DNA from: Spiroplasma endosymbiont of Nebria brevicollis
Lineage (GTDB): Bacteria; Bacillota_I; Bacilli_A; Mycoplasmatales; VBWQ01
NCBI RefSeq assembly: GCF_964030895.1
Contig: NZ_OZ034986.1
Location: 744,001 to 808,000 of the forward strand
DNA: 64,000 nucleotides
Reading direction: 5' to 3'
Below, one piece after another: positions 38,261 to 61,647 of the stretch (the first letter of the stretch is position 1; every line of letters begins with the position of its first letter). The notes below the pieces were generated by a model. The model was not told where the DNA came from and ran no database searches. It was given only the letters and a program-made list of their open reading frames with translations. Both the position numbers and the translations under genes were made by a program.

Positions 38261-38289
38261 ATAGATGCTTGCTAAATAGATAGAATAAT
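38261..38289. repeat. 29-bp direct repeat, right copy
   Basis: Identical to 36667-36695. Its last base is the first base of the complement of the nuclease stop codon, so the IS landed exactly at the 3' end of that gene without damaging it. Confidence 0.85.
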
Positions 38290-38849
38290 TAACTAAGTTC
38301 TTTAAAAAAATCATCCATTTTAAAATAATCAATACTATGGTCAAATGTTGATGAATAAATAATTTTAAAACTTAAAGAAATACGATTTTCATCATTTAAT
38401 CTTTGAACTTTATCTTTTAATTTATATCTAATATTTTTAATATTTCTAATACTACGATCAGTTTCACGTCTAATATCAAACACAAAAAAACATTTTATTT
38501 CATTAAATAAAATCTCACGATTGGTATCAATATTATGTTGAAAACAACTAAAAGTATCCATAAATTTTTTTGATAAATCACTAACAATATCTTCATGAAA
38601 ATGTTTTTGAATTTTAAATTCAATAAATAAAAACTCATTTTTTTTGTTAAAAGTAATAGCATCAATTGATTTAACACCACGAGTACGATTACAACATAAT
38701 ATTTTTAAATTATCACCATCAATAGCATATTCATTAGAATCTGATGAGTACGTCTTAGAAGCAGTACTATATGAAAGCGTACGAAAAGTCTTTTTATTTT
38801 TTTTATAAATCTTAATTAAATTACTTTTTAATGTCTCATTTAAATTCAT
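38289..38849 (-). CDS. Putative PD-(D/E)XK-type nuclease, ATPase partner
   Basis: A 186-residue protein. The pattern VKSIDAITF followed by EFLFIEFKIQ gives D63 and E77-x-K79, which fits a PD-(D/E)XK nuclease core (D, then E-x-K in the next strand). The C-terminal half is charged and helical. Its ATG overlaps the ATPase stop by 14 bp, so the two are translationally coupled and probably form one complex. By analogy with ATPase-nuclease pairs (OLD-like, PARIS, Septu) a phage-defence role is likely but unproven. Other option: a small restriction-like or DNA-repair nuclease. Confidence 0.5.
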   Translation of the reverse strand: MNLNETLKSNLIKIYKKNKKTFRTLSYSTASKTYSSDSNEYAIDGDNLKILCCNRTRGVKSIDAITFNKKNEFLFIEFKIQKHFHEDIVSDLSKKFMDTFSCFQHNIDTNREILFNEIKCFFVFDIRRETDRSIRNIKNIRYKLKDKVQRLNDENRISLSFKIIYSSTFDHSIDYFKMDDFFKELS

Positions 38850-40320
38850 ACTTATCCAACTCCCTGTATGGATAGCTTAAAGCTTCGTTAATATGGTCTA
38901 AACTATTCTCTTCTATTATACAAGAATTAAAATTTTTATCTTTATTAATGAAATTATACTTAAATGTTAAGTCTTTAAAGTCACGATTTGACAATGAAGT
39001 AATAGTTTCAATAATATAAGGACTATGTGTTGAAACTACTAATTTAAAATTAACAATCCGAGCAATGTCTAATAATAAACGAGCAAACAAATATTGTCAT
39101 TCGGGATGGATATAAGCTTCGGGTTCATCAATAATAACTAAATTACCTTCTTTAAAGAAACCATTACTAATCATTGTTTTAAATGCTTCAATAATTTTTA
39201 AACCACGTGATGAATTAGAAAACTTAACAGTTACCCCTTTTTTAGTTAAACTACCATTTTCCAAGTTGATTTTATTCTCAAAAGCAAAGTAATTATATAG
39301 TTCCTTACTAATTTTTTCTTTAACAAGGACAGCTTTTAAATTACTGTAACGTTCAGTTTCATCGTCATCACTAATCTTACTTTTAAAATCGTCTAAGTAA
39401 TTACATTTTTTAAATTTAAAAATATTATTAATAGATAATTTTAATCTTTCAGTTTCTAACATATACTCAGAAGTTTTTTGAATACGTTTTTCTTCCATCA
39501 TTAAATCTAAAATTTGATCAGTGTCACTAATATACGTAGCATCAAGGACAGGGTTTTCAATAATGTTTTCTAAATAATTAAATTCATTTTCCAATTCAAA
39601 CTCATTATTTGCTTTAATAATAATACTTAATGTTTTTTTGTTATCCAAACTAAGTTTTAACTGACTATCTTCATTACTACAGTTTTTATTTTTTAGTGTT
39701 TCACTATGAAAATTTTCTGATAAGATGTTGGACATTAAATAAGAAATAATATCTTTTTTATCATTAGTGAAAAATATTAAAATTTCTTCAATATCTTTAT
39801 TAATAGTATTAATAACATACTTAATAGTTTTTATTTTGTAGGCATCCTTATTAGTATTAATATCAATTTTTTGTAAAGTAATAATAATTAATTCATCATT
39901 CTTTTTCAATAACTTATTACAATCTTTTAATAAACTAATTCAAAAATCATTAAATTTTTCTTGTTTATTATCAAAATTTTCTACTCATTTTTGTAAAAAC
40001 ATTTTATTACTTATATTAAGTTGTTCATAAATCGTATTAATTTCTTTAAATAGTGGTGTTTCTTTATCTTTATTACTAAAGTTAGTTTCGATAAAAGTAT
40101 CAATCGAACTTTCGATTTGTTTGAATGTACTTTCAATAAAACTAAGAAAATTTTTAACAACTTGTGATTCAATATCACTAGTAGCAATTTTCATCATAGC
40201 AAAAACTAAACGGCTTAAATAACTTTTACCAGTATCATTAATACCAGCAATCACTGTAATATCACCGATATTTAAAGTAGTATCTTTAAATGGCCCAATG
40301 TTTTTTATTTTTAATTTCAT
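38836..40320 (-). CDS. AAA-type (AAA_15/OLD-like) ATPase
   Basis: A 494-residue ABC/SMC-like ATPase. Walker A GINDTGKSY lies at residues 26-34, directly after the LKIKNIGPFKDTTL start seen in OLD/RecF-like proteins. A long coiled middle follows, then signature-like FSNSSRGLKIIEAF, Walker B LVIIDEPEAYIHPEWQ and H-loop VSTHSPYIIETI. No TOPRIM domain; the partner gene supplies a nuclease-like domain instead. ATG at 40320 has AAAGGTGAG upstream. In defence systems such ATPases sense phage components and control a toxic effector. Confidence 0.75.
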
Positions 40321-40483
40321 GTGTAACTCACCTTTATATATTTTTAAATATTTTAAATCATACAAATATCATACCATTTAAGACTAGATAGATGGCAAAT
40401 ATTGAGTATTTTACTTATTACTAATAATGAGAAAATTAAAATATGGTTGACAAATGAAGCACGAATTATATTTTAAAACTTAT

Positions 40484-41314
40484 TTACTGAGGACTACCAC
40501 AATAAAAAGCATTAACTACTATTATTTTACCAAAACTTACTTGTAGCCAGACCGGAGTTGTCGTAAATGTTTCAACCACAGACATACTGTTATCAGTTCA
40601 AGTTAGTGATGGTGTTGCAGATAAAAAGTTAAGTAAAGCAGCTCATTGATTTTGTTTATCATTACTATTTAAATTTAAAGTACAATTACGAGAAAAAGCA
40701 TTAATAGTAAAACCACAAATTTTATTTAAAGCAATATTGTTTGAGTTAACTAACTGTGTTGCTAGTTGGGGAATATTTAAATAATTATTATTTAATGTAT
40801 CTAAATGATATGTTTTCAAAGTTTTATTATTTAGTTTGACACTAACTTCGATAGTACCACCAGAAATTTGATAATCCCAACTACCAGCAGTTATCTTGCC
40901 ATGATTAACATTATCAATAACAGCAGTTAGATTACTAATATCATCAACATCTTGGCTACTATATATTGTTTCAATACCACCAGAAATAAATCCTAACTGT
41001 CTTAATAAATTAGCCGTTTGAAGGTTTTTGGCCGTAAAATCATTACCATTACTAATCAATAATTGCTCTTTGAAATTAGTCTCAGTAATAATTTTACTAT
41101 TAATAAAAATTTCATACATATTTGTTTGGGCATTATACTGTAATTTTTGTTCTATTTTTGAGATATTATCATCACTATTTCATCCTAATAACAAAGCAAA
41201 CTCTGAATCAACTTGTGGTTGATTTCATGCTAAAATTTTACTATGTGCATTAATACTTGTTAAAGATACACTACCAATCATAATAGCACCTAGAAATCGT
41301 AATATAACTTTCAT
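40484..41314 (-). CDS. Secreted hypothetical protein
   Basis: A 276-residue protein with a signal peptide MKVILRFLGAIMIGSVSLTS and likely cleavage after SINA; no lipobox Cys. The mature part has few Cys, mixed strand and helix content, and the piece GGIETIYSSQDVDD recalls GGIETVSQQ in one of the surface proteins of the neighbouring cluster. Family not recognised. It is likely cell-surface or released. Three TGA Trp codons near the end. Confidence 0.65.
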
Positions 41315-41918: not shown

Positions 41919-41944
41919 ATTCACCATCTAAAAAGATAGTGAAT
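41919..41944 (-). terminator. Terminator of the surface-protein operon
   Basis: ATTCACTATCT pairs with AGATGGTGAAT across a short A/T loop, followed by TTTTTT on the minus strand, about 60 bases after the last surface-protein stop. Confidence 0.7.
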
Positions 41945-42005: not shown

Positions 42006-43382
42006 CTACTTCATACCATTATTAAAAGTAATATTATCTAGATTATATTGATAACCATAGCCATCACTGTCTACATCATGAACTGCTATCACTGATGAAG
42101 CTTGATAATAAATATTATTATCATCATGTCAAAGATATAAGGCAAAACACATTTGACTTCAATAATAACCATTATCATAATCTTTTTCAATGATAAATTT
42201 ATAGTAATCATCAGAATTTCAGTCATTAGTATAAGCATTATCGAAATTACTTAAATCTGGTGGTTGTTTATCTTTAATGCAATTAGTGTTAGCGTTTAAA
42301 TCACTAAATTTTTTTGAACCTGTATTACCATTCTTAACTTGTAAATAAGAATTGTTACCAAAAACAAAGGTTGGATATAGACTAGTGAAATTATCTCAGT
42401 TATTAGCAATTTTTTTTCAATTAACAATGCTTTGCGGGTCACTTCATCATCATTTATAACCATAATTAAAAGACCCAGCACTAGCACTATCGTTAGTATT
42501 AACATTCAAAGTAAGATTATCCGTATTTCAATTTGAATAATAGATTTCAATTAAATTATTATTACTATCAAAAATATAATTAGTAGCATAATTTTTATAC
42601 AACATACCTTCTCCATCACGTGGTGGTGATTGATAAAGCAAATTATAAACATTATTACTAGTAGCAATGATATTAATGATGCTACTTGTTACACTATCAT
42701 CAAGGTTTTTTAAACTACTTTTACTAATAAAATACTTACCTAAACTAGTAGCAACAGCCATATCAATCCCACCAGGATTACGTTCTGCTTGAGCAATATA
42801 ATACAAACCTAACGTTTCACTCAAACTATTACTATGTTCTACTTTATTAGCTGATTGTTGACTACTAATATCAATATGATTTTCTATACCACCCATTTGT
42901 AAATATTTTCAACTACTATTATCACCACTAAAGTAACTATCACTAAAAATACTTTTACTATAAACATTATAATCATCTTTAATACTTGTTACTTGTTTAT
43001 GATTAATCATCTCTGCTTGCATGTTATTTAGCATATTTTTATTGGCATTAGAAAGATTTAAACTAGAATCAATTGCCAGATTGCCATTGCTATCAACAAA
43101 AAAAGCATTTCGAAAGGGCGTCGTCCCATCACTTAAATTACCAACAGCATGGCTGGTATCATAACTATAATATTTATGGTCAGTTGTTGATTGGTTAGTA
43201 ATTCACTTATCTTGACTTAAATACCCAAATTTATTATTAAATAATGAAGATGGTGTTTGACCATTACTAGGGTTACTATTAAGTTTGTTGTTAATAATAG
43301 TATTGTTAACAACATTCACCGTCATATTACTTGCTAATGTTAAAGTAGTCAAACTACTTAAAATAATTAATATTTGTTTCAT
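42006..43382 (-). CDS. Surface protein A, secreted, cluster member
   Basis: A 458-residue protein with a signal peptide (MKQILIILSSLTTLTLA). Shared with protein B upstream are WITNQSTTDHKYYSYDTSHA near residue 60, HIDISS..ANKVEHSNSLSETLGLYYIAQAE and NYATNYIFDSNNNLIEIYY. The C-terminal 170 residues are unique, rich in Asn, Asp, Tyr and Trp (many TGA). Probably exported and bound to the surface; adhesion is a guess from size and composition. Last gene of a four-gene minus-strand cluster. Confidence 0.65.
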
Positions 43383-43410
43383 ATTTTATTTTCCTTTATT
43401 GAAATAATTT

Positions 43411-45564
43411 CTAACTCATTTGTTGATAATCAATTACATACTTAAAATCAGGGAATGTTATTAAAGCACCTGGACTAACTGATATTCCACTAAATTCACT
43501 TGATATATCAAGCACACAAAATGGATTACTATAACTTTCATTTGTGGCAAATATTAAAGAAACAGTTGTTAACTTACGATCATTACCACTTGTTTCAACT
43601 TTAGTGTGCAATCAAATCATTGTTGTTTTAGTAAGTACATCTCAAAAGTTTTTTTCAGAACCTTCATCATTAGTAATAGATGCTGTGTCAATGTTAAGTG
43701 TTGGAGATTTAGGATCGCCACTTTCTAATTTATAATCAATATTGACATGACCTTTAAAACTAGAGTCAATAACACTATAAGAATTATTGTTAATAGTTCC
43801 CAAGACACTATCTTTGTTATTTGAATCACCAATTAATCTTTTTGTTAAGTTAGATTGTTGATAATAATGTTCGTTATCTTGCAATAAATTAGGATCTTGA
43901 CCATCAGGAAGTTTAATTCCATCTATTGGAACTTGTTTTGCAGGGTCAGATGCTAATTCACTATTAATAAAATTAGTATTTTTACCATGAACTATAATAT
44001 TAATATCTGATAAACTCTCAATAATTCGATATTGTCCAGCTACTGCTGCAATCGTAACAGTAAAAGTTTTACCTTTTTTTTGATTGAAAAGGTTATCACC
44101 TACTTGTAAATTTGTACTAATAGTAAAATCATCATCTTTAATTCCGATATCAGAATCATTAGTTTGAAAATAGGCAGATACATCTTTTTTGATAATATCA
44201 TTAATTTGGGTATTAGCTCTTGCTAGTCCAACGGTTGTTAACTTACCATCGGCATTACTATTATCTTTGTTATCAATATTAATAGTTAGTCAATGTGCTT
44301 GATCAGTGTTAGTATACTTGGTTTCAATTGTAGTTTTTAAATTATCTTCGCCACTTAATTTAACACACTTATTAATTACAGGGATAGTTCCATCATAAGT
44401 ACCAGCAAAGTTAAACTGATTAGCAGCTTGTCAATTAGTAGTAATTGTATAACTAACATTAATAGTATCATTAAAGTTTTTAATTGCATCGCTATCATTG
44501 AAATTAAGGTTAAAATATTTATTATCAAGCTGTTCTGGTTTAATTTTCACTCTATCACTTAATTGACTTTTAAAACTATTAATTACTTTTTCTTTAATTA
44601 AACTTTCAATATCTTTAACTGATTTTGACTCAGGTTTTTCGACAGAAATAACTTGTGGGTCAAATTGCAAGTTTAAATTCTTAATATCAAATTGATTAGT
44701 ATATTGCGTGTAATAAATTTCTACTACTTGATTATTACTATCTAAAATATAATTAGTAGCGTAGTTAGTATTATCATCACTATTTTGATATGGTGCACTC
44801 ATAATATACTGCAAGGCAACATCAGCAGATGAGGAAATAAAAGTAATAATAATACCAGTAAATACTTCATCAGGAACATTAGTTCCTAAAACGCTGCGAT
44901 TCATAAATGCTTTTGCTAAAGCTAAATATGTGTTTAATTCTTCTTTACTTTGGTCTTTCGCTGCTTTACCAATGTAATAAAGTCCTAATCCTTCACTTAA
45001 ACTGTCATGATTTGAAACTTTATTGGCACCAGTAACATCAGAAATATCAACATGCTTTTCAACTTGACTTTCTTGAAGGAACTTTCAATCAGGATTGTCA
45101 CCACTAAATAAATCATTCCGAAATTCACTACCTGTATAAGCATTATCAGTAATACGATTAAAAGCAGTTACTTTGCGATGGACAATTATTTCATCTTTAG
45201 TATTGTTAAGATTATTATAGTCAATATTTGTATAACTATCTTTTTTGTTAATTACTAGTTGTCCACTATCATCAACTTTAAAGGTTGTTCTTGCATTACT
45301 TTTGTCACTTAATTCATAGTTAGCATGACTTGTATCATAACTATAATATTTATGGTCTGTTGTTGCTTGATTAGTAATTCAATCACTATCATTTAATTTT
45401 TGATATTCATCATTAAATATTGGTGTGGCAGAAGCTACTTGTGGTGTTACATTAGTACTTGATTTAATAATACTTTTATGTTCTGTAAAATTAGTGTTTA
45501 ATGCTGCATTTCCTGCTAAGGTTAAAGTAGATATGCTACTTAAAGTCAATAATAAATTTTTCAT
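43411..45564 (-). CDS. Surface protein B, chimera of A-type and C-type parts
   Basis: A 717-residue protein behind GGAGGTAA. Signal peptide MKNLLLTLSSISTLTLAG. Residues ~60-310 resemble protein A (WITNQATTDHKYYSYDTSHA; SLSEGLGLYYIGKAA; NYATNYILDSNNQVVEIYY). The last ~180 residues resemble protein C (LPDGQDPNLLQDNEHYYQQ; ALITFPDFKYVIDYQQ). The middle has domains with LNLQFDPQVISVEKPESKS typical of repeated beta modules. It seems to have arisen by fusion or recombination of its neighbours. Confidence 0.65.
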
Positions 45565-45612
45565 TTTTACCTCCAAAATTATTTTAATATGATTAATATA
45601 GCAATTTATTAT

Positions 45613-47583
45613 TTAATTATTTTGTTGATAGGAAATATTGAAATTAAAGTTAGGAAACATTAATATAGCGCCATCATCAATTGAGATTCCTGTTTTTTTT
45701 ACAAGGTCAAAACTATATAAAGTATTATCACCATTAGTATGTGGTGGATCAATGGTACTAGTGAATACTAATTTTACACTATTTAAAATTCTATCTTTTT
45801 GTCCTGATGGTGGATTTTTTGTCACACTAGTATATAAATAAATATTTTTAGTTTGATTAATTAAATCGTAAAAATTACTTATTTTTTGATTAGGATTTTT
45901 AATATCACTAATATTGAGAGTAGTAGATTCTATTGACCCTGACGTTTCTAATTGATATTGGGAAGTAAACGAACCAGTAAAACTATTTTTTTTAATACTA
46001 TAAGCATTTTTTAATTGATTTTTTAAACTATCTTTATCATCGCCCATTAAATTTGCTAATAATGTTGCTTGTTGGTAATAGTGTTCATTATCTTGCAAGA
46101 TATTAGCATCTTGTCCGTCAGGTAAATAAATACCATTTAGTTTAAATCCCGCAGGCGAATTATGATTTTGGGTCGTAGCACTATTATTAGTACCATGAAC
46201 TGTAATATCAAATGATAAATTACCAGAAAGTTTATAACCTTCTTGCTTTGGAGAAATAGTAATTTTACATTGTTTACCTGAGATACCATCATTATTTTGA
46301 AAGAGATTATCTTTTAGTTTTAAGTCAGAAGTAATTTGAATATTATCAGTTTTCAGGTTAAGTAAACTATATTTCTTATTAAAGTAACTTACTACAAGGG
46401 GTTTAATAGCTTCATTAATTTTACTATTGGCTGTTATTAACCCTGTATCTGTTAAACTAGTATCAATATTATCTTTATCAGTTTTATTATCAAATATTAT
46501 GTTTAATCAATTATCAGGGTTTGTTTCTTGTTCAGGATATTTATTTTTAATTTCTGTTTGTAATTGTGCCTCTCCATTTAGATCACATATTTTATTTTGA
46601 ACATTAACACTAGATTCTAGTTTTCCAGTAAAGTTATCTTTATTACCATCTGTAGTTGTAATTTGAAACTTAACAGGAACTGACTCTGTATTAAAATTGT
46701 GGGGTTTATCATCATTATCATTAAAAGTAATATTATAATCACTATCAGGAATAGTAGGAATTTGTAAAATTGATTTTAGTTTAGTTACAAACGCATCTTT
46801 AATTGCTGGTTGAATATATTGAACAATTTGCGGAATAGTAGCATTAGTACTACTTTTGTAGTCAGTATAAATTACTTGATTGGGGTTTAAGTCTAACTTT
46901 ACATTTTTAAGTTCAACTGTCAGCAAATTCGTGATTGTAACTTTAATTACAAAATTAATATTATTATTTACGATACCAAAAGCTTTAGCTTCATCACTAG
47001 TATTTACTTTTAAATCATATGATGTACTTTGATTATAGTTGCTTGGTCATTCAAAGGTATTATTAGTAACTTGTTGATTGTTAACTGTAAAATCAACTGC
47101 TGGATTATTAATAATATTAGTAAAGAAACCATTAGGTAATGATTTAACAGTTTGTTGGGAAACTGTTTCAATGCCACCAACTTGTAATTTGTTATCAATT
47201 TGGTTTAAGATGGCGCTAAAACTAAGACTGTCTTTATCCTTAGCACTATGAATTTGTCAAAAAACTGGATTAGCATTATCTTTAAAAAAGTTTTGTGTAG
47301 GTGCTAAGTCAATTGGTTTATTATCTGGCTTATTATTTTCATAATATTGTTCTCATAAATTAGCATTGCTATGAGGATTAAAATTACTATCACTATAGCT
47401 AGCATGATTGGATACTAATAACGTAGTTGTTGTTATACCTGTTATACCAAACACTAATAAGTAAATACTAATTAATAATCAATTTTTTTTATGATTTTTT
47501 TGTAACTTATTTTTAATAAGCGTTGGGGTTTTATCAACATTAGTAATAATTGTTGGTCTATGATTAATTGTTTTTGGTTTCAT
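45613..47583 (-). CDS. Surface protein C, membrane-anchored
   Basis: A 656-residue protein. A basic 35-residue N-terminal cytoplasmic part is followed by one membrane span (about residues 36-57, WLLISIYLLVFGITGITTT), so it is a type II anchored protein. The extracellular part has two domains related to the B middle region and a C-terminal module (LPDGQDANILQDNEHYYQQ; AILMFPNFNFNISYQQ) shared with B. GGIETVSQQ occurs near residue 130. No catalytic motif seen. Confidence 0.65.
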
Positions 47584-47631: not shown

Positions 47632-49197
47632 TTATTTTAAACGTTTACGTTTACGAAGCAATAAAATCACAAATGGTAAAATAATTAAAATACTAAAAAA
47701 TATACAAGCAAGAATAATAGTCTTTCAATTATTAACCAAAGTTTTAGAAGATGGTTTGGTATTAATATGAAATGGATTTGGATCATCACTATTGGTTGTT
47801 AAATAATTAATATAGTTATGTTTAGCAATAGCACCTTGATAAGTAATAAATTGACTAACTAACGCACTAGCATTATCTTTTAAATCGTTAACTTCAAGAT
47901 TATTAGTACTATTTAGATATTGTTGAAATCCTTGGAATGTCACATTACTATCAGCAAATAAATTAGTACAATTACTAAAAATTGGAGCTTGGTCTTGATT
48001 ATAAATAGTAACATATTGACCTGATGCTTGTTGTTGAGCTTTGTCTTGCACATTTAAAGCAAGATAGTAAACTTGGATTCCTGATGATGAACTACTTGCT
48101 GTTAATGTATAATTATTAGCAATAGGGTTTGTTGTTGTACTATCAATAGTTAAAGTTTTAGCATCAACATTGGCATAAGTTCATTTTTCATAAGTAGGGA
48201 TTTTAACAGTAGCATTTCCTTTAGCATAGTTCATAACAAGTAAGTTGTCATTACCAGCAACATTTTGAACTAAATATTGACAATCAACATTAGTAATATC
48301 ATTTTTAGTGCCCATAGTAAAACTTAATTGAGATGTTTTATTACTAATAGTAATATCATGGTGCACTACTTCATTGGTAGCAGAACCACTAGCATCAACG
48401 CTAAAATTAGTAGCGTTAAACCCAGCACTAGGATTATGAGCAATAATAGCATAACTAAGATTGCCATTTTCAATTGGTTCAATGTTAGTAGTACCAGATT
48501 TAATAACTAATTTTTCTTCTGGTTTAGCTTTAGCTAAAATAACTAACTCATTTTCATTTTCACTTTTAATATTATTATCACCGATTGGAATAACTTTTAA
48601 ACGTTCAGATAATGATTGATTAATAATATTTTTGCTAGCTTGCAAAGTATAAGGTACTGAAAAATAATTGGTAAAACTACTTTTGGGGTTAATCGTGGCA
48701 AACAAACCATTATTAATGCTGGTTGACAATTGATCACTATAGTTAAGATAGACACTACCAAAACTAGAAATTCCACTATCAAAATTTTTATTTGCAAAAC
48801 TACGACCAATAATTGTCTTATCAAAATATTGTTTTCCATCAGTGGGCATAAAATGATTAGTCTTGTCGTCAATTTGTCCTTGGAATGCGTTAACTACTTC
48901 TTTACTAATAAAATCATCACTAATTGGTGCTTGTAACTGATTAGCGATTTGGTCTCATTGCTTGAATTCAACATTAATTAATTTATCTTTATTATTTTTT
49001 ATTAATTGTGCATAATTATCATTAATCTTATTTCAGGTATTAGCTAATTTAACATCATTATTATTATTTTCTTTAACAGTAATATGAAATCCTGGTAAAG
49101 TATGATTACTAGTAGTAGCAAAAGTTAAGCCAGAAGTAAGTGCTAGTGTCGATAGTAATGCTGTAAATTTATAATTAAAATGTGATATTTTTATCAC
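47632..49197 (-). CDS. Surface protein D, type I membrane protein
   Basis: A 521-residue protein starting at GTG (49197) behind AAGAAGGTGA. N-terminal signal peptide (FTALLSTLALTSGLTFA), a large Asn/Ser/Thr-rich extracellular region, a single C-terminal membrane span (TIILACIFFSILIILPFVILLL) and a basic cytoplasmic end RKRKRLK. This is the layout of mollicute adhesins. First gene of the cluster. No similarity to A-C was noticed. Receptor unknown. Confidence 0.65.
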
Positions 49198-53235: not shown

Positions 53236-54417
53236 CTAAAAACTAATATTTTGTTTATTAAAATATGCTACTCTTGCATTTAACATATTAATAAATGTTT
53301 TAGAATTATATGATTTTGCACCATTTCCTTTTAATGACTTTACTAAATGAAAAACAGTACTTTCAGCATAACAACCAATATTTCAATCTGCTCCTTGATT
53401 AATAATACCTTGAGTATTATTTTTAAAATAATTAAATGTTTTTTCATCAACATTATTTTCTAAAATATTAATAAATTGATTATAATTACCGTTTTTAAAA
53501 GAAGCAGATGAATCTATATACTTAGTTCAATCAGTAGATTCTTTTTTCTTTCCCCTTTTACCAACAAATGATTTTCAAAGATAACTAAAAGCATGAAATT
53601 TATCTAATATATAATAACCACCTAATAATTTAGCCATTGCTCTTATTGATAATGCACCATCACCTGCAATTATTAAATTAAGATTTTGAGATTCTAAATC
53701 TTTTAAACTATTTATTTTAATATCATAATTATTATTAATAGTTTCAAAAACAAAATTATATACTTTATCTTGTGTTATATTATTACTATTACCAGTTTTA
53801 TATAATAAAAAAGCAGTAGTTTTATTTAATAATTGATTTCTATTTTTACCAATATTAATTTTATGAGTATAAAAATTAAAAATTCTAATACAATGTTTTT
53901 CTATTATTCCATAATCATTTCTTAAAAATTCATAACAATCATCAATATCAATATGAAGTTTTTGATTATCTAATACTTTAATTTTTTCTTTTAAAGGTTG
54001 AATAGTAAATTTACTATTTTTTATTATATTACTAATAGTTTGATTTGAAATAGGACAATCGGGTAACATATCTTTAATATCACATTGTCTTTTACCTTTA
54101 TGTATTTGTTTTAATATAAAATTTAATAAACGATTAGTACAATTTTTATATTTTAGAATTTTAATAAAATTTTTTACTGGACATATATTTTCATTAGTTT
54201 CTAAATTTTTATATATTCTTAATGGAAGATAAGATTTTCCAAAAGGATTAATAATTAATTTTACTCTTCTTTGTATTAATTTATATTTATTTTTATCATA
54301 AGTTTTAAAATAATTATAATCATAATTTAATAAATCTTGTTCATATTCTTTTATTTTTAAATTTGTATATTTAATATCTAAACTATCATAATCATATTCA
54401 TTATTAATTAAAGTCAT
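53236..54417 (-). CDS. UPF0236 / Mbov_0401-type transposase-like protein
   Basis: A 393-residue protein. The layout matches the UPF0236/ISLre2 group: N-terminal zinc- and HTH-like part (QCDIKDMLPDCPISNQTISNI), then DDE-like strands LHIDIDDCYEFLRND, LIIAGDGALSIRAMAKLLGG, ILDKFHAFSYLWK, and WNIGCYAESTVFHLVKS at the end. In mycoplasma integrative elements the Mbov_0401 homologue acts in mobilisation. Here it sits at the edge of a prophage, opposite to the head genes, so it may be the element's recombinase. Full length, one TGA Trp in the middle. Confidence 0.7.
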
Positions 54418-57981: not shown

Positions 57982-58898
57982 TGTTACCTTTAATTATTAG
58001 ATTAATATATTCTGCATTAGCAAGTGATGATATTCGTGTATTAATTGTTAGTTTATTAAAAAATTATAGTAAAGATAATGGATTAAAATCAGTGTTAGAT
58101 AGTGAAAATGTTTCTATTGAAGAATTAAATCAACCTTATTCAGTTTTTAATCCTAATATTGCTAAAAAATTATTATCTATTTTAAAACCTAATGAATTAA
58201 CTATTTTAAAAACTGAATTAGATAAATTATTTGTTAATCCAATTAAAAAAGTTAATAATTTATTTAAAGATAATAAAACTAAAGATACTAAAGATTTAAA
58301 TAATAAAGATGTAAAAGAAACTGATAATAAAGATGATAAAGGTTGAGTAATATTATCTAGTTCATGATTAAAAAAAGGTTTATTTTATAAATCTAATAAA
58401 TCACTTAAATTAGGATTATTACAAGTTTTAATACAATCTGATACATATAAAAATAAACGTTGATATGGTCCATATACTTATCCTAATGTAAATGAAGAGA
58501 CTTGAGAATTAATGAAAGTTCAAAAAGGTAAAAATGGTAGTGGTGCTGGAACAATATTTTGAAGATATTTTTTAAGGGGTTTTTTACCTTCACAAATACG
58601 TAAATATGTTAAGAAACAACTTAAAGAAGAGAAAGGTATTAGTAAAGGTAAACAACGCTATAATGTGCTTAAATCAACTAATATTAATGTATTAAAAACA
58701 ACTGCATTTATTAATAGATTAGAACGTGGATTTTTTAAACTTAAAGAATTTAAAACTTTACCAAAAACTGAATTAGGTAGTAGAGCATGAAGAGTAGAAA
58801 GAAAAGAATATTTAAATTTTCATAAAACAAGTAGTACTACTAAAAATATAGGTATTTCTATTTATAAAAATAAAAGTAAATATAAAACATGAAAGTAG
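57981..58898 (+). CDS. Basic structural protein, unknown
   Basis: A 305-residue protein; start overlaps the previous stop by one base (TAATG). N-terminal helices, then a Lys/Asp-rich repeat (NKTKDTKDLNNKDVKETDNK), then a globular basic part with WYGPYTYPNVNEETWELM and GKNGSGAGTIFWRYFLRGF, somewhat like the KTSC-type fold. The C-terminus is very basic. It could bind the phage genome or act as a tail-tube/portal substitute. No strong match. Confidence 0.5.
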
Positions 58899-58906
58899 GT
58901 GATTAT

Positions 58907-59422
58907 ATGGATATAGATTTAACAAAACCTATTAAACCAATTGGTATATGAAATACTATTAATCCAATATCAAAAGATAATAAAGAATATAAAAAATTAA
59001 ATAAAATTTGATTTAATAAAAATAGTACTCATATAGATAAAATCAAAATATTAATATCTAATATTTTAAAAATAACTAGTCATATTATTGGTATATTAAT
59101 AACATTATTTTTTACAATAACACCATGATTACTACCTAAAATACCAATAGAAATGGGAATTGGAAGTTATACAACTCAATATAATTTTACTTGACCTGAC
59201 CATTTAATATTAACTTTATTTCCAATGTTTAGTCATATAGGAGTAAATGTTATTACTAAATTAGGTAATTATGGAAAATTAATTAAATATGGATTAATAA
59301 CAATTCCAATTATTATTACAAGTCCTTATTTAATTTATCAATATCAACAAATTAAAAAACATAAAAAAGAATGTATTTTATGTAAAAATCATTCAAATAA
59401 AATTCAAATAGAAAAGGTGTAA
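58907..59422 (+). CDS. Two-span membrane protein
   Basis: A 171-residue protein with membrane spans at about 56-75 (SHIIGILITLFFTITPWLL) and 127-147 (GLITIPIIITSPYLIYQY) and a C-terminal CILCKNH pair near a basic tail. Start behind AAAGTAGGTGA. Unknown; lysis or assembly possible. Confidence 0.5.
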
Positions 59423-59428
59423 TAAAAA

Positions 59429-59770
59429 ATGAATTTAACAGTATATTTATTAAGTGGAATTATAGGAGGAGCAGTTACTAGTGGTGTTATTATTACTTTT
59501 GTATTATCTATTATTTCAAAAAAAATTAAAAAAAATAAACAAGATATAGTTGCTAAAGAACTTAAAATTAATAAATTAATTGAATATATTATTTTAAATA
59601 TTAAACAATTAAATGATAGATTACAATTAACAGAAACTCCTATTGCACAAAAATTAGATGCTTTTGATGTTGATGAAAAAGATTTTGAAGATTTTATTAT
59701 TGCTCAAAAAGCAAAACGTCAAGAATTAACAAATAAAGATAAGAAAAAAGTAACTAAAATTAAAATTTAA
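59429..59770 (+). CDS. Small single-span protein
   Basis: A 113-residue protein. One N-terminal span with small residues (YLLSGIIGGAVTSGVIITF) and a long charged cytoplasmic tail. Size and layout are holin-like, and mollicute phages need no endolysin, but this is only a possibility. Last gene before a terminator. Confidence 0.5.
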   Translation: MNLTVYLLSGIIGGAVTSGVIITFVLSIISKKIKKNKQDIVAKELKINKLIEYIILNIKQLNDRLQLTETPIAQKLDAFDVDEKDFEDFIIAQKAKRQELTNKDKKKVTKIKI

Positions 59771-59797
59771 AGGGTTTAAATACCCTTTATTTTTACA
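59768..59797 (+). terminator. Terminator inside the phage head module
   Basis: AAAGGGT and ACCCTTT with a short loop followed by ATTTTTA, directly after the small single-span gene. Confidence 0.65.
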
Positions 59798-59811
59798 TTA
59801 AGGAGTAAATT

Positions 59812-61647
59812 ATGGCAATTAAAGACCCAATATTATTTATTACAGTTGAAGAATTTAAATTATCAAAATATTTTAATGAATTATTATTTGATAAAGTAAC
59901 TACTCCAGATAATGAAATTTGATTTGCAATATCTGTAGCTAGTAGTAATATTGATTATTTAAGTGGTTTTACTATTAGTAAAAAATGACCAGAAATAACA
60001 CCAACAGATTTTACAGATAATGTTCAAACAGCAACTACTAATTATGTTAGATTTTTATTAACTAAAGATGTAGATTATTTACGTGGTCAAGGTTCAATTA
60101 GTCAAGGTGGATTAACTTATAGTGAAACTAATCCAGATGACCCTTATTTTATCCCACCCGAAGTATTTAATTATTTAAGAAAAATTAAAGAATATCCAAA
60201 TATTAAAGGTTTTAATTTAAAAGGAATAGAACCACAAAAAAATAATTATTTTAATAAATTTATTTCAAATTGTGGAGAAGATAGTCCATTAAATGCATAT
60301 ATACCATATACTAATATAAAATCATTAGATATTAGAACTAAAATTACTATTACTAATACACAAAATATGTTAAGACCAGTTGTTAATATTGATACTAGAG
60401 GTATTAATACAAGTACTACAGTACCTGAATTTAAAAGTCCAAAAAAAACTATTAATATTAAATATGATAAAGAAACTCATATAGTTAATAGTGATGTTAG
60501 TGATAAAGTAATTTATTTTGATGACCTTGATGATAAAAAAAATGCTATTGAAATTTTAAAACATACTTTAGTACCTAATTTTATATATAAATGAGTTGCT
60601 TATAAAAATTTTAATCCGTTTACAGAAGATTACTCAAGTTATTTAAATGGAACTTTAATTCCAAAAAAATATGCAGATGATAAATTATTATTAAAACAAG
60701 ATAAATTAATTGCAGGTACTAATATAACTATTAAAGATAATATTATTAGTGCTACTGGGGGAAGTTCAGTTGATGAAAATAGAATATTTGATAATAAAGA
60801 TGATAAAGATACTACTACTAATTTAATTAATAATGTTATTAAAAAAGGTAATATTACATTAACATATAGAAATAATCCGTTTGTAACTGATGATTTAGAT
60901 ATTCCACATAAAAAATATGTTGATGATAAAATTAATGAATTAAATTTTATTAAATGAAAATCAGTTGGTACTATTAGTAATGAAAATGATAATATTGCAT
61001 TTAATTTTAAATTAAACACTTTATATAGAGTTGCTTATTCATGAGCATATCTTAAAAGTAATGGAAGTAGTAAATATTTAATTTTTATGTGAAGAGGCGC
61101 ACCTGCTATATTAGATAGTACATTTCAAGCAGAAAATAATCAAAAGGTAGTAACTAATTATGTTGATTTAGGTGTTACATCAGCAATGATTTATTTAAAA
61201 AAATATAATTATCAAACTGGTTTTTTGCTTTCATTAGAAGAAGCAGAAAATACAAATACTAAAAATTATAGTGAACAAATATTACCAATAACTCCACCAA
61301 TACCACCAACACCTTGTCCATGTCCAAAATGAAAAGAAGTAGGAACAAGACAAACTAAAGATAGAATTTTATATACTTTTATTGTGGGTAAAAAATATAG
61401 AGTTACTTATATGTGATACGGAGATACGCAACCTATTTCTTATTCTATAACTAAAGAATTTGATAAACTAGTATCAAACAAGATTGATTGTATATATACA
61501 ATAGATAGTTATGTACGAAATTGAAATGTAGTTAAAAATAGAATTGAGTTGTTTAAATTAGAAGTTAATAATATTTGTATTAGAATTAACAACGCTGGTG
61601 GTATTACTTATGGAAATATTTTAAAATTAGAAGAATTACAAGAATAA
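59812..61647 (+). CDS. Connector-like domain fused to a fibre-like protein
   Basis: A 611-residue protein behind AAGGAG. Residues 1-130 (FITVEEFKLSKYFNELLFD; NEIWFAISVASSNIDYLSG; TTNYVRFLLTKDVDYLRG) resemble small helical head-tail connector proteins. From about residue 280 the text is typical of tail fibres: YADDKLLLKQDKLIAGTNIT, IPHKKYVDDKINELN. A proline-rich hinge (TPPIPPTPCPCPKW) separates two similar C-terminal modules (KWKSVGTISN... and KWKEVGTRQT...), perhaps receptor-binding. Fusion of these roles is unusual. Confidence 0.55.

Follow-up and report, generated by a model that had tools for sequence, protein, structure and literature searches.

Mollicute surface genes are already known to undergo domain shuffling. 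Among the described systems, the adhesion-related proteins ScARP/SARP1 of Spiroplasma citri carry 6–8 sarpin repeats of 39–42 aa, which are absent in ScARP4a, and a C-terminal transmembrane helix (PMC2386487, PMC3485318), and ARP genes were reported to be fast-changing in S. poulsonii (PMC8208695). In Mycoplasma genitalium, mosaic genes of the surface adhesin MgPa arise by recombination with MgPar partial copies located elsewhere in the genome, and switching was observed within a strain (PMC2169797). Here, we analyzed a stretch of 64,000 nucleotides (the window) containing an array of four genes, A to D, in which gene B had been predicted from the letters alone to be a chimera of its tandem neighbours A and C. 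No description of the A and C families was found in the literature.

The window belongs to a single-contig genome of 1.49 Mb (G000) from an insect-symbiont Spiroplasma that we place in the S. ixodetis group; male-killing and protective symbionts are among the members of this group. Genetic code table 4, in which TGA encodes Trp, was used for all gene reading; genes D, C, B, and A are whole under this table and broken under table 11. They lie head to tail in the order D–C–B–A on the minus strand, as do the modules and spacers described within the array, with spacers of 28–48 bp. Gene D (47632–49197; 521 aa) possesses a C-terminal membrane anchor and is unrelated to A, B, or C by BLASTP, while its relatives in other genomes sit elsewhere. 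Gene C (45613–47583) encodes 656 aa with an N-terminal membrane anchor at residues 36–54 and is followed, after a 48-bp spacer (45565–45612), by gene B, for which the predicted coordinates (43411–45564) proved correct and which encodes 717 aa from an ATG preceded by GGAGG. A 28-bp spacer (43383–43410) then leads to gene A (42006–43382; 458 aa), with a signal-peptide-like start and no further membrane segment. Downstream of A, a terminator-like hairpin (41919–41944, minus strand) is a weak candidate, since one such hairpin was found against 1.5 expected by chance.

Pairwise comparison by composition-adjusted BLASTP upheld the predicted chimera. The A-like N part of B (residues 1–288; 44701–45564) shares 42% identity (E 7e-58) with the A_N module of A (residues 1–285; 42528–43382), and the C-like C part (residues 293–715; 43420–44688) shares 36% identity (E 7e-59) with the C_C module of C (residues 224–654; 45622–46914), while A and C match each other at E 0.76 at best. 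HHalign likewise showed no relationship between the A-family (20 rows) and C-family (7 rows) profiles (probability 0.5%). By these alignments, B is a single-breakpoint mosaic that joins the front of A to the back of C, and not a full-length paralogue of either, because A and C have nothing detectable in common. The sharing with A extends over about 288 residues rather than the roughly 250 first proposed, and that with C over about 423 residues instead of roughly 180, the latter figure corresponding to the best-conserved tail alone.

The breakpoint lies near residues 284–304. The last A-specific block (NYATNYI.DSNN...EIYY) stops at about residue 284, the adjusted BLAST alignments switch from A to C at residues 288/293, and the AlphaFold model of B displays a low-confidence linker at residues 289–304 (pLDDT <50; 44653–44700) between two better-modelled parts. 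The exact point is not fixed, because unadjusted local alignments overextend on both sides. At the DNA level, A and B are about 40–75% identical in most 60-bp windows and reach 80–88% in two short conserved blocks. The join is thus ancient judging by these identities, since most of the shared DNA is close to saturated, and a recent join is ruled out on the same ground. A rise in A–B similarity just before the junction (80%) was considered as a trace of gene conversion and is too weak to call.

Both A and B begin with a hydrophobic, signal-peptide-like segment lacking a lipobox cysteine, as judged by hydropathy only and with no dedicated predictor. In all three proteins, a lipobox cysteine after the signal peptide is absent, the first cysteine occurring at residue 368 in A, 400 in B, and 333 in C, which sets them apart from the mollicute variable lipoproteins. 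From the signal-peptide and membrane segments, we infer that these proteins are surface-located or secreted, and B may be an anchorless form of the outer module of C. As in ScARP/SARP1, the A and B proteins belong to multi-copy exported Spiroplasma families with a signal-peptide-like N-terminal start. Unlike ScARP/SARP1, B is chromosomal and has neither sarpin repeats (self-BLAST detected no internal repeats) nor a C-terminal transmembrane helix, which is likewise absent from A and C. Adhesion or another host contact would be our guess at the function, with adhesion suggested by analogy with the ScARPs.

Neither Pfam nor NCBIfam yielded a match above the curated cut-offs for A, B, C, or D, and sequence searches of solved structures returned nothing credible. 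The AlphaFold model of A (mean pLDDT 69.6) gave no fold match below E 0.001, and the best fold match of B, to an S-layer protein (E 8e-5), was discarded as not meaningful at a TM-score of 0.12. Within the C half, two helix-plus-strand units resemble each other at the level of predicted secondary structure, a comparison that did not establish sequence homology between them.

We compared five relatives from the genus (G004, Spiroplasma ixodetis SHM; G005; G006, Spiroplasma sp. AdecLV25b; G007, Spiroplasma of Danaus chrysippus; and G008). The family was present in 6/6 genus genomes and in 0/292 other genomes sampled from the order. Orthologues of C (39–40%; 663–664 aa) occur in G004, G005, G007, and G008, and in all four of these genomes an A-family start follows about 18 bp after C, the gene being reduced to its beginning in G004. 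An intact A_N::C_C gene is absent from all five relatives, and intermediates toward B are likewise missing; in G006 the contig stops within A, so the missing B and C there carry little weight. The genus also holds a second, diverged locus where a C-like gene precedes an A-like gene. At this locus, a RarA-like AAA gene lies between the two in G007 and its fused or broken remains in G005 and G004, while in G006 the two genes are only about 8 bp apart.

Scattered A copies, some whole and some partial, are frequent in the window genome and its relatives. Partial copies elsewhere recall MgPa/MgPar, as does the making of mosaics by exchange among copies, observed here in sister genomes only; the present mosaics differ in being between-genome ones, and the copies are for the most part whole or decaying genes, not a silent archive. 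In the window's own genome, a short signal-peptide-like start is joined directly to an A_C module (L074:6331–6927). At L076:5469–6593, an A-family C-terminal part (86% to that of L045) is preceded by an N part whose KTVAGAINELKQ motif recalls phage tail fibres. IS256-like elements interrupt several A-family genes (L031:8161–9399 and L031:12263–13501; also in L032 and L049), which then terminate in IS-encoded FSNLC...LQK. A scan of genome contigs with B alone as the query gave no match. A phage origin was set aside, as phages and viral contigs yielded no match, and so was a plasmid origin, for which the sole match was partial and A-like, on a plasmid of the Drosophila atripex Spiroplasma.

In G007, a second C-type half (the C3 fragment, L035:7346–8500) lies directly before an A-family start. 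In a tree of the R1 region (B residues 333–440), this fragment and B group together (99/96; alternative rejected, p-AU 0.009), which makes the B-type C half older than the split of these species. In a tree of the tail (556–721), it groups with the C of G007 itself (99/99; alternative rejected, p-AU 0.019), so that in at least one lineage the tails were exchanged later. Because long branches are present in the tail tree, the identities over residues 601–721 (68% to its own C versus 41% to B) count as much as the support values. The conflict between the two trees is best read as indicating later exchange. For the N half, B grouped with G007_A3 (81/93), only weakly suggestive of an old lineage, and a grouping of B with the A copies of the window genome was not rejected (p-AU 0.19). 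A reading in which G007_A3 and the C3 fragment are pieces of a single broken B orthologue is unsupported, because one and the same insertion-sequence end adjoins both, and beside C3 no A_N remains. Relatives of the window genes at 58889–61647 adjoin the C3 fragment as well. The window further encodes an Mbov_0401-family ICE transposase-like protein (53236–54417; E 2.5e-65), and since the neighbours of this gene have relatives beside C3, an integrative element may lie near both places.

The A genes of sister genomes are clear mosaics. G007_A1 resembles G008_A1 for about 65–70 informative sites and then switches abruptly to a G005_A1/G008_A2-like sequence (maximum chi-square 88–108; 0/500 shuffles as extreme). 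Between the C genes of G004/G005 and G007/G008, one patch at about 1101–1300 is 86–88% identical, against mostly 91–100% elsewhere. The original prediction had suggested module exchange by recombination; the mosaic, with no A–C similarity, agrees with it, and the direct evidence of recombination comes from these relatives and not from the window's genome. The recA gene is whole in the window genome and G008 and is broken, partial, or not found in G004–G007, so the exchange in some lineages may be older than the loss of recA.

Tandem duplication that ends inside two neighbouring genes is a general route to chimeric genes and leaves the chimera between both kept parents. We consider it fairly probable that C followed by A is the original arrangement in the S. 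ixodetis group, that one tandem duplication made B, and that later exchange between paralogues remodelled the array. According to this scheme, a membrane-anchored C followed by an exported A would have formed the ancestral pair, and a duplication running from within C to within A would have produced C–[A_N::C_C]–A in one step, both parents being kept whole. B would then be exported by the signal peptide of A, carrying the outer module of C without its membrane anchor, while homologous exchange between paralogues would have continued to remodel the array. The observed elements of this explanation are the mosaic, the conserved C–A order, the similar junctions, and the recombination in sister genomes. 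The order C–B–A is the one left by a single tandem duplication, for which both the C–B and the B–A junctions should run from a C end to an A start, and the B–A junction with its flanks resembles the C–A1 junction of relatives, a likeness that extends to the ACATTCCCTGATTTTAA stretch close to where the C half ends. Gene order and junctions thus make the single-duplication mechanism probable. The explanation as a whole also draws on the second C-like/A-like pair in the genus, on the position of the breakpoint in a linker, and on the whole recA of the window genome. Here too, both parents are present with the chimera between them, and no DNA footprint of so old an event survives the great divergence between A and B.

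Other explanations were weighed against this one. Full-length paralogy of A, B, and C with unequal divergence, the reading that would have overturned the original prediction, could draw on the unadjusted local alignments, which continue past the junction on both sides; this overextension disappears under composition adjustment, and A and C, with E values near 1e-58 to their respective halves of B, share no sequence or profile similarity, so we regard this reading as refuted at the sequence level and exceedingly improbable overall. A stepwise assembly, in which dispersed A and C copies fused, perhaps aided by insertion sequences, and B came to lie between C and A only secondarily, would fit the common whole and partial A copies, the A_C modules attached to different N-termini (L074, L076), and the insertion sequences cutting A genes. 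We find it unlikely, since B sits exactly between its parents in the order and orientation of one duplication, flanked on each side by a C-end/A-start junction, although single-event and multi-step origins of B leave much the same pattern.

The chances are about even that the genus ancestor already carried C–B–A, from which deletion between repeated C_C or A_N segments removed B in the relatives. The R1 tree, which places the B-type C half before the G000/G007 split, speaks for such a loss, as does the retention in G007 of this half adjoining an A start, with a B-like N half elsewhere; the N part of that copy is missing, so an A_N::C_C structure cannot be demonstrated there. An ancestral B leaves its first making unexplained and is compatible with the tandem-duplication model, not opposed to it.

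If the single duplication holds, duplication across a gene pair would offer a wall-less symbiont a concrete route to a new exported protein with the parents kept. The comparisons also name gene families that lack a Pfam or NCBIfam model and were encountered here in a single Spiroplasma group only, save for the partial Spiroplasma-plasmid match. Variation of the cell surface is a plausible role that the mosaic may serve; the join in B is old. Only tentatively, heritable insect symbionts might reshuffle modular exported proteins, built on an anchored-plus-exported pair, by duplication and exchange, with the C module also occurring anchorless as B. If true, this would amount to a protein-diversification system facing hosts without adaptive immunity.

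Compared with AdecLV25b (L036) over 38289–41314 and 42006–43382 of the window, an AAA ATPase is 98–99% identical, as is its partner of 186 aa, while the neighbouring gene E is 86% identical and A is 76–86% identical and interrupted. The exported-protein genes A and E diverge much faster than the adjoining genes, making them candidates for host contact. The ATPase, of AAA_15 type, and its small partner gene of no known family (38289–40320) could constitute a defence-type pair.
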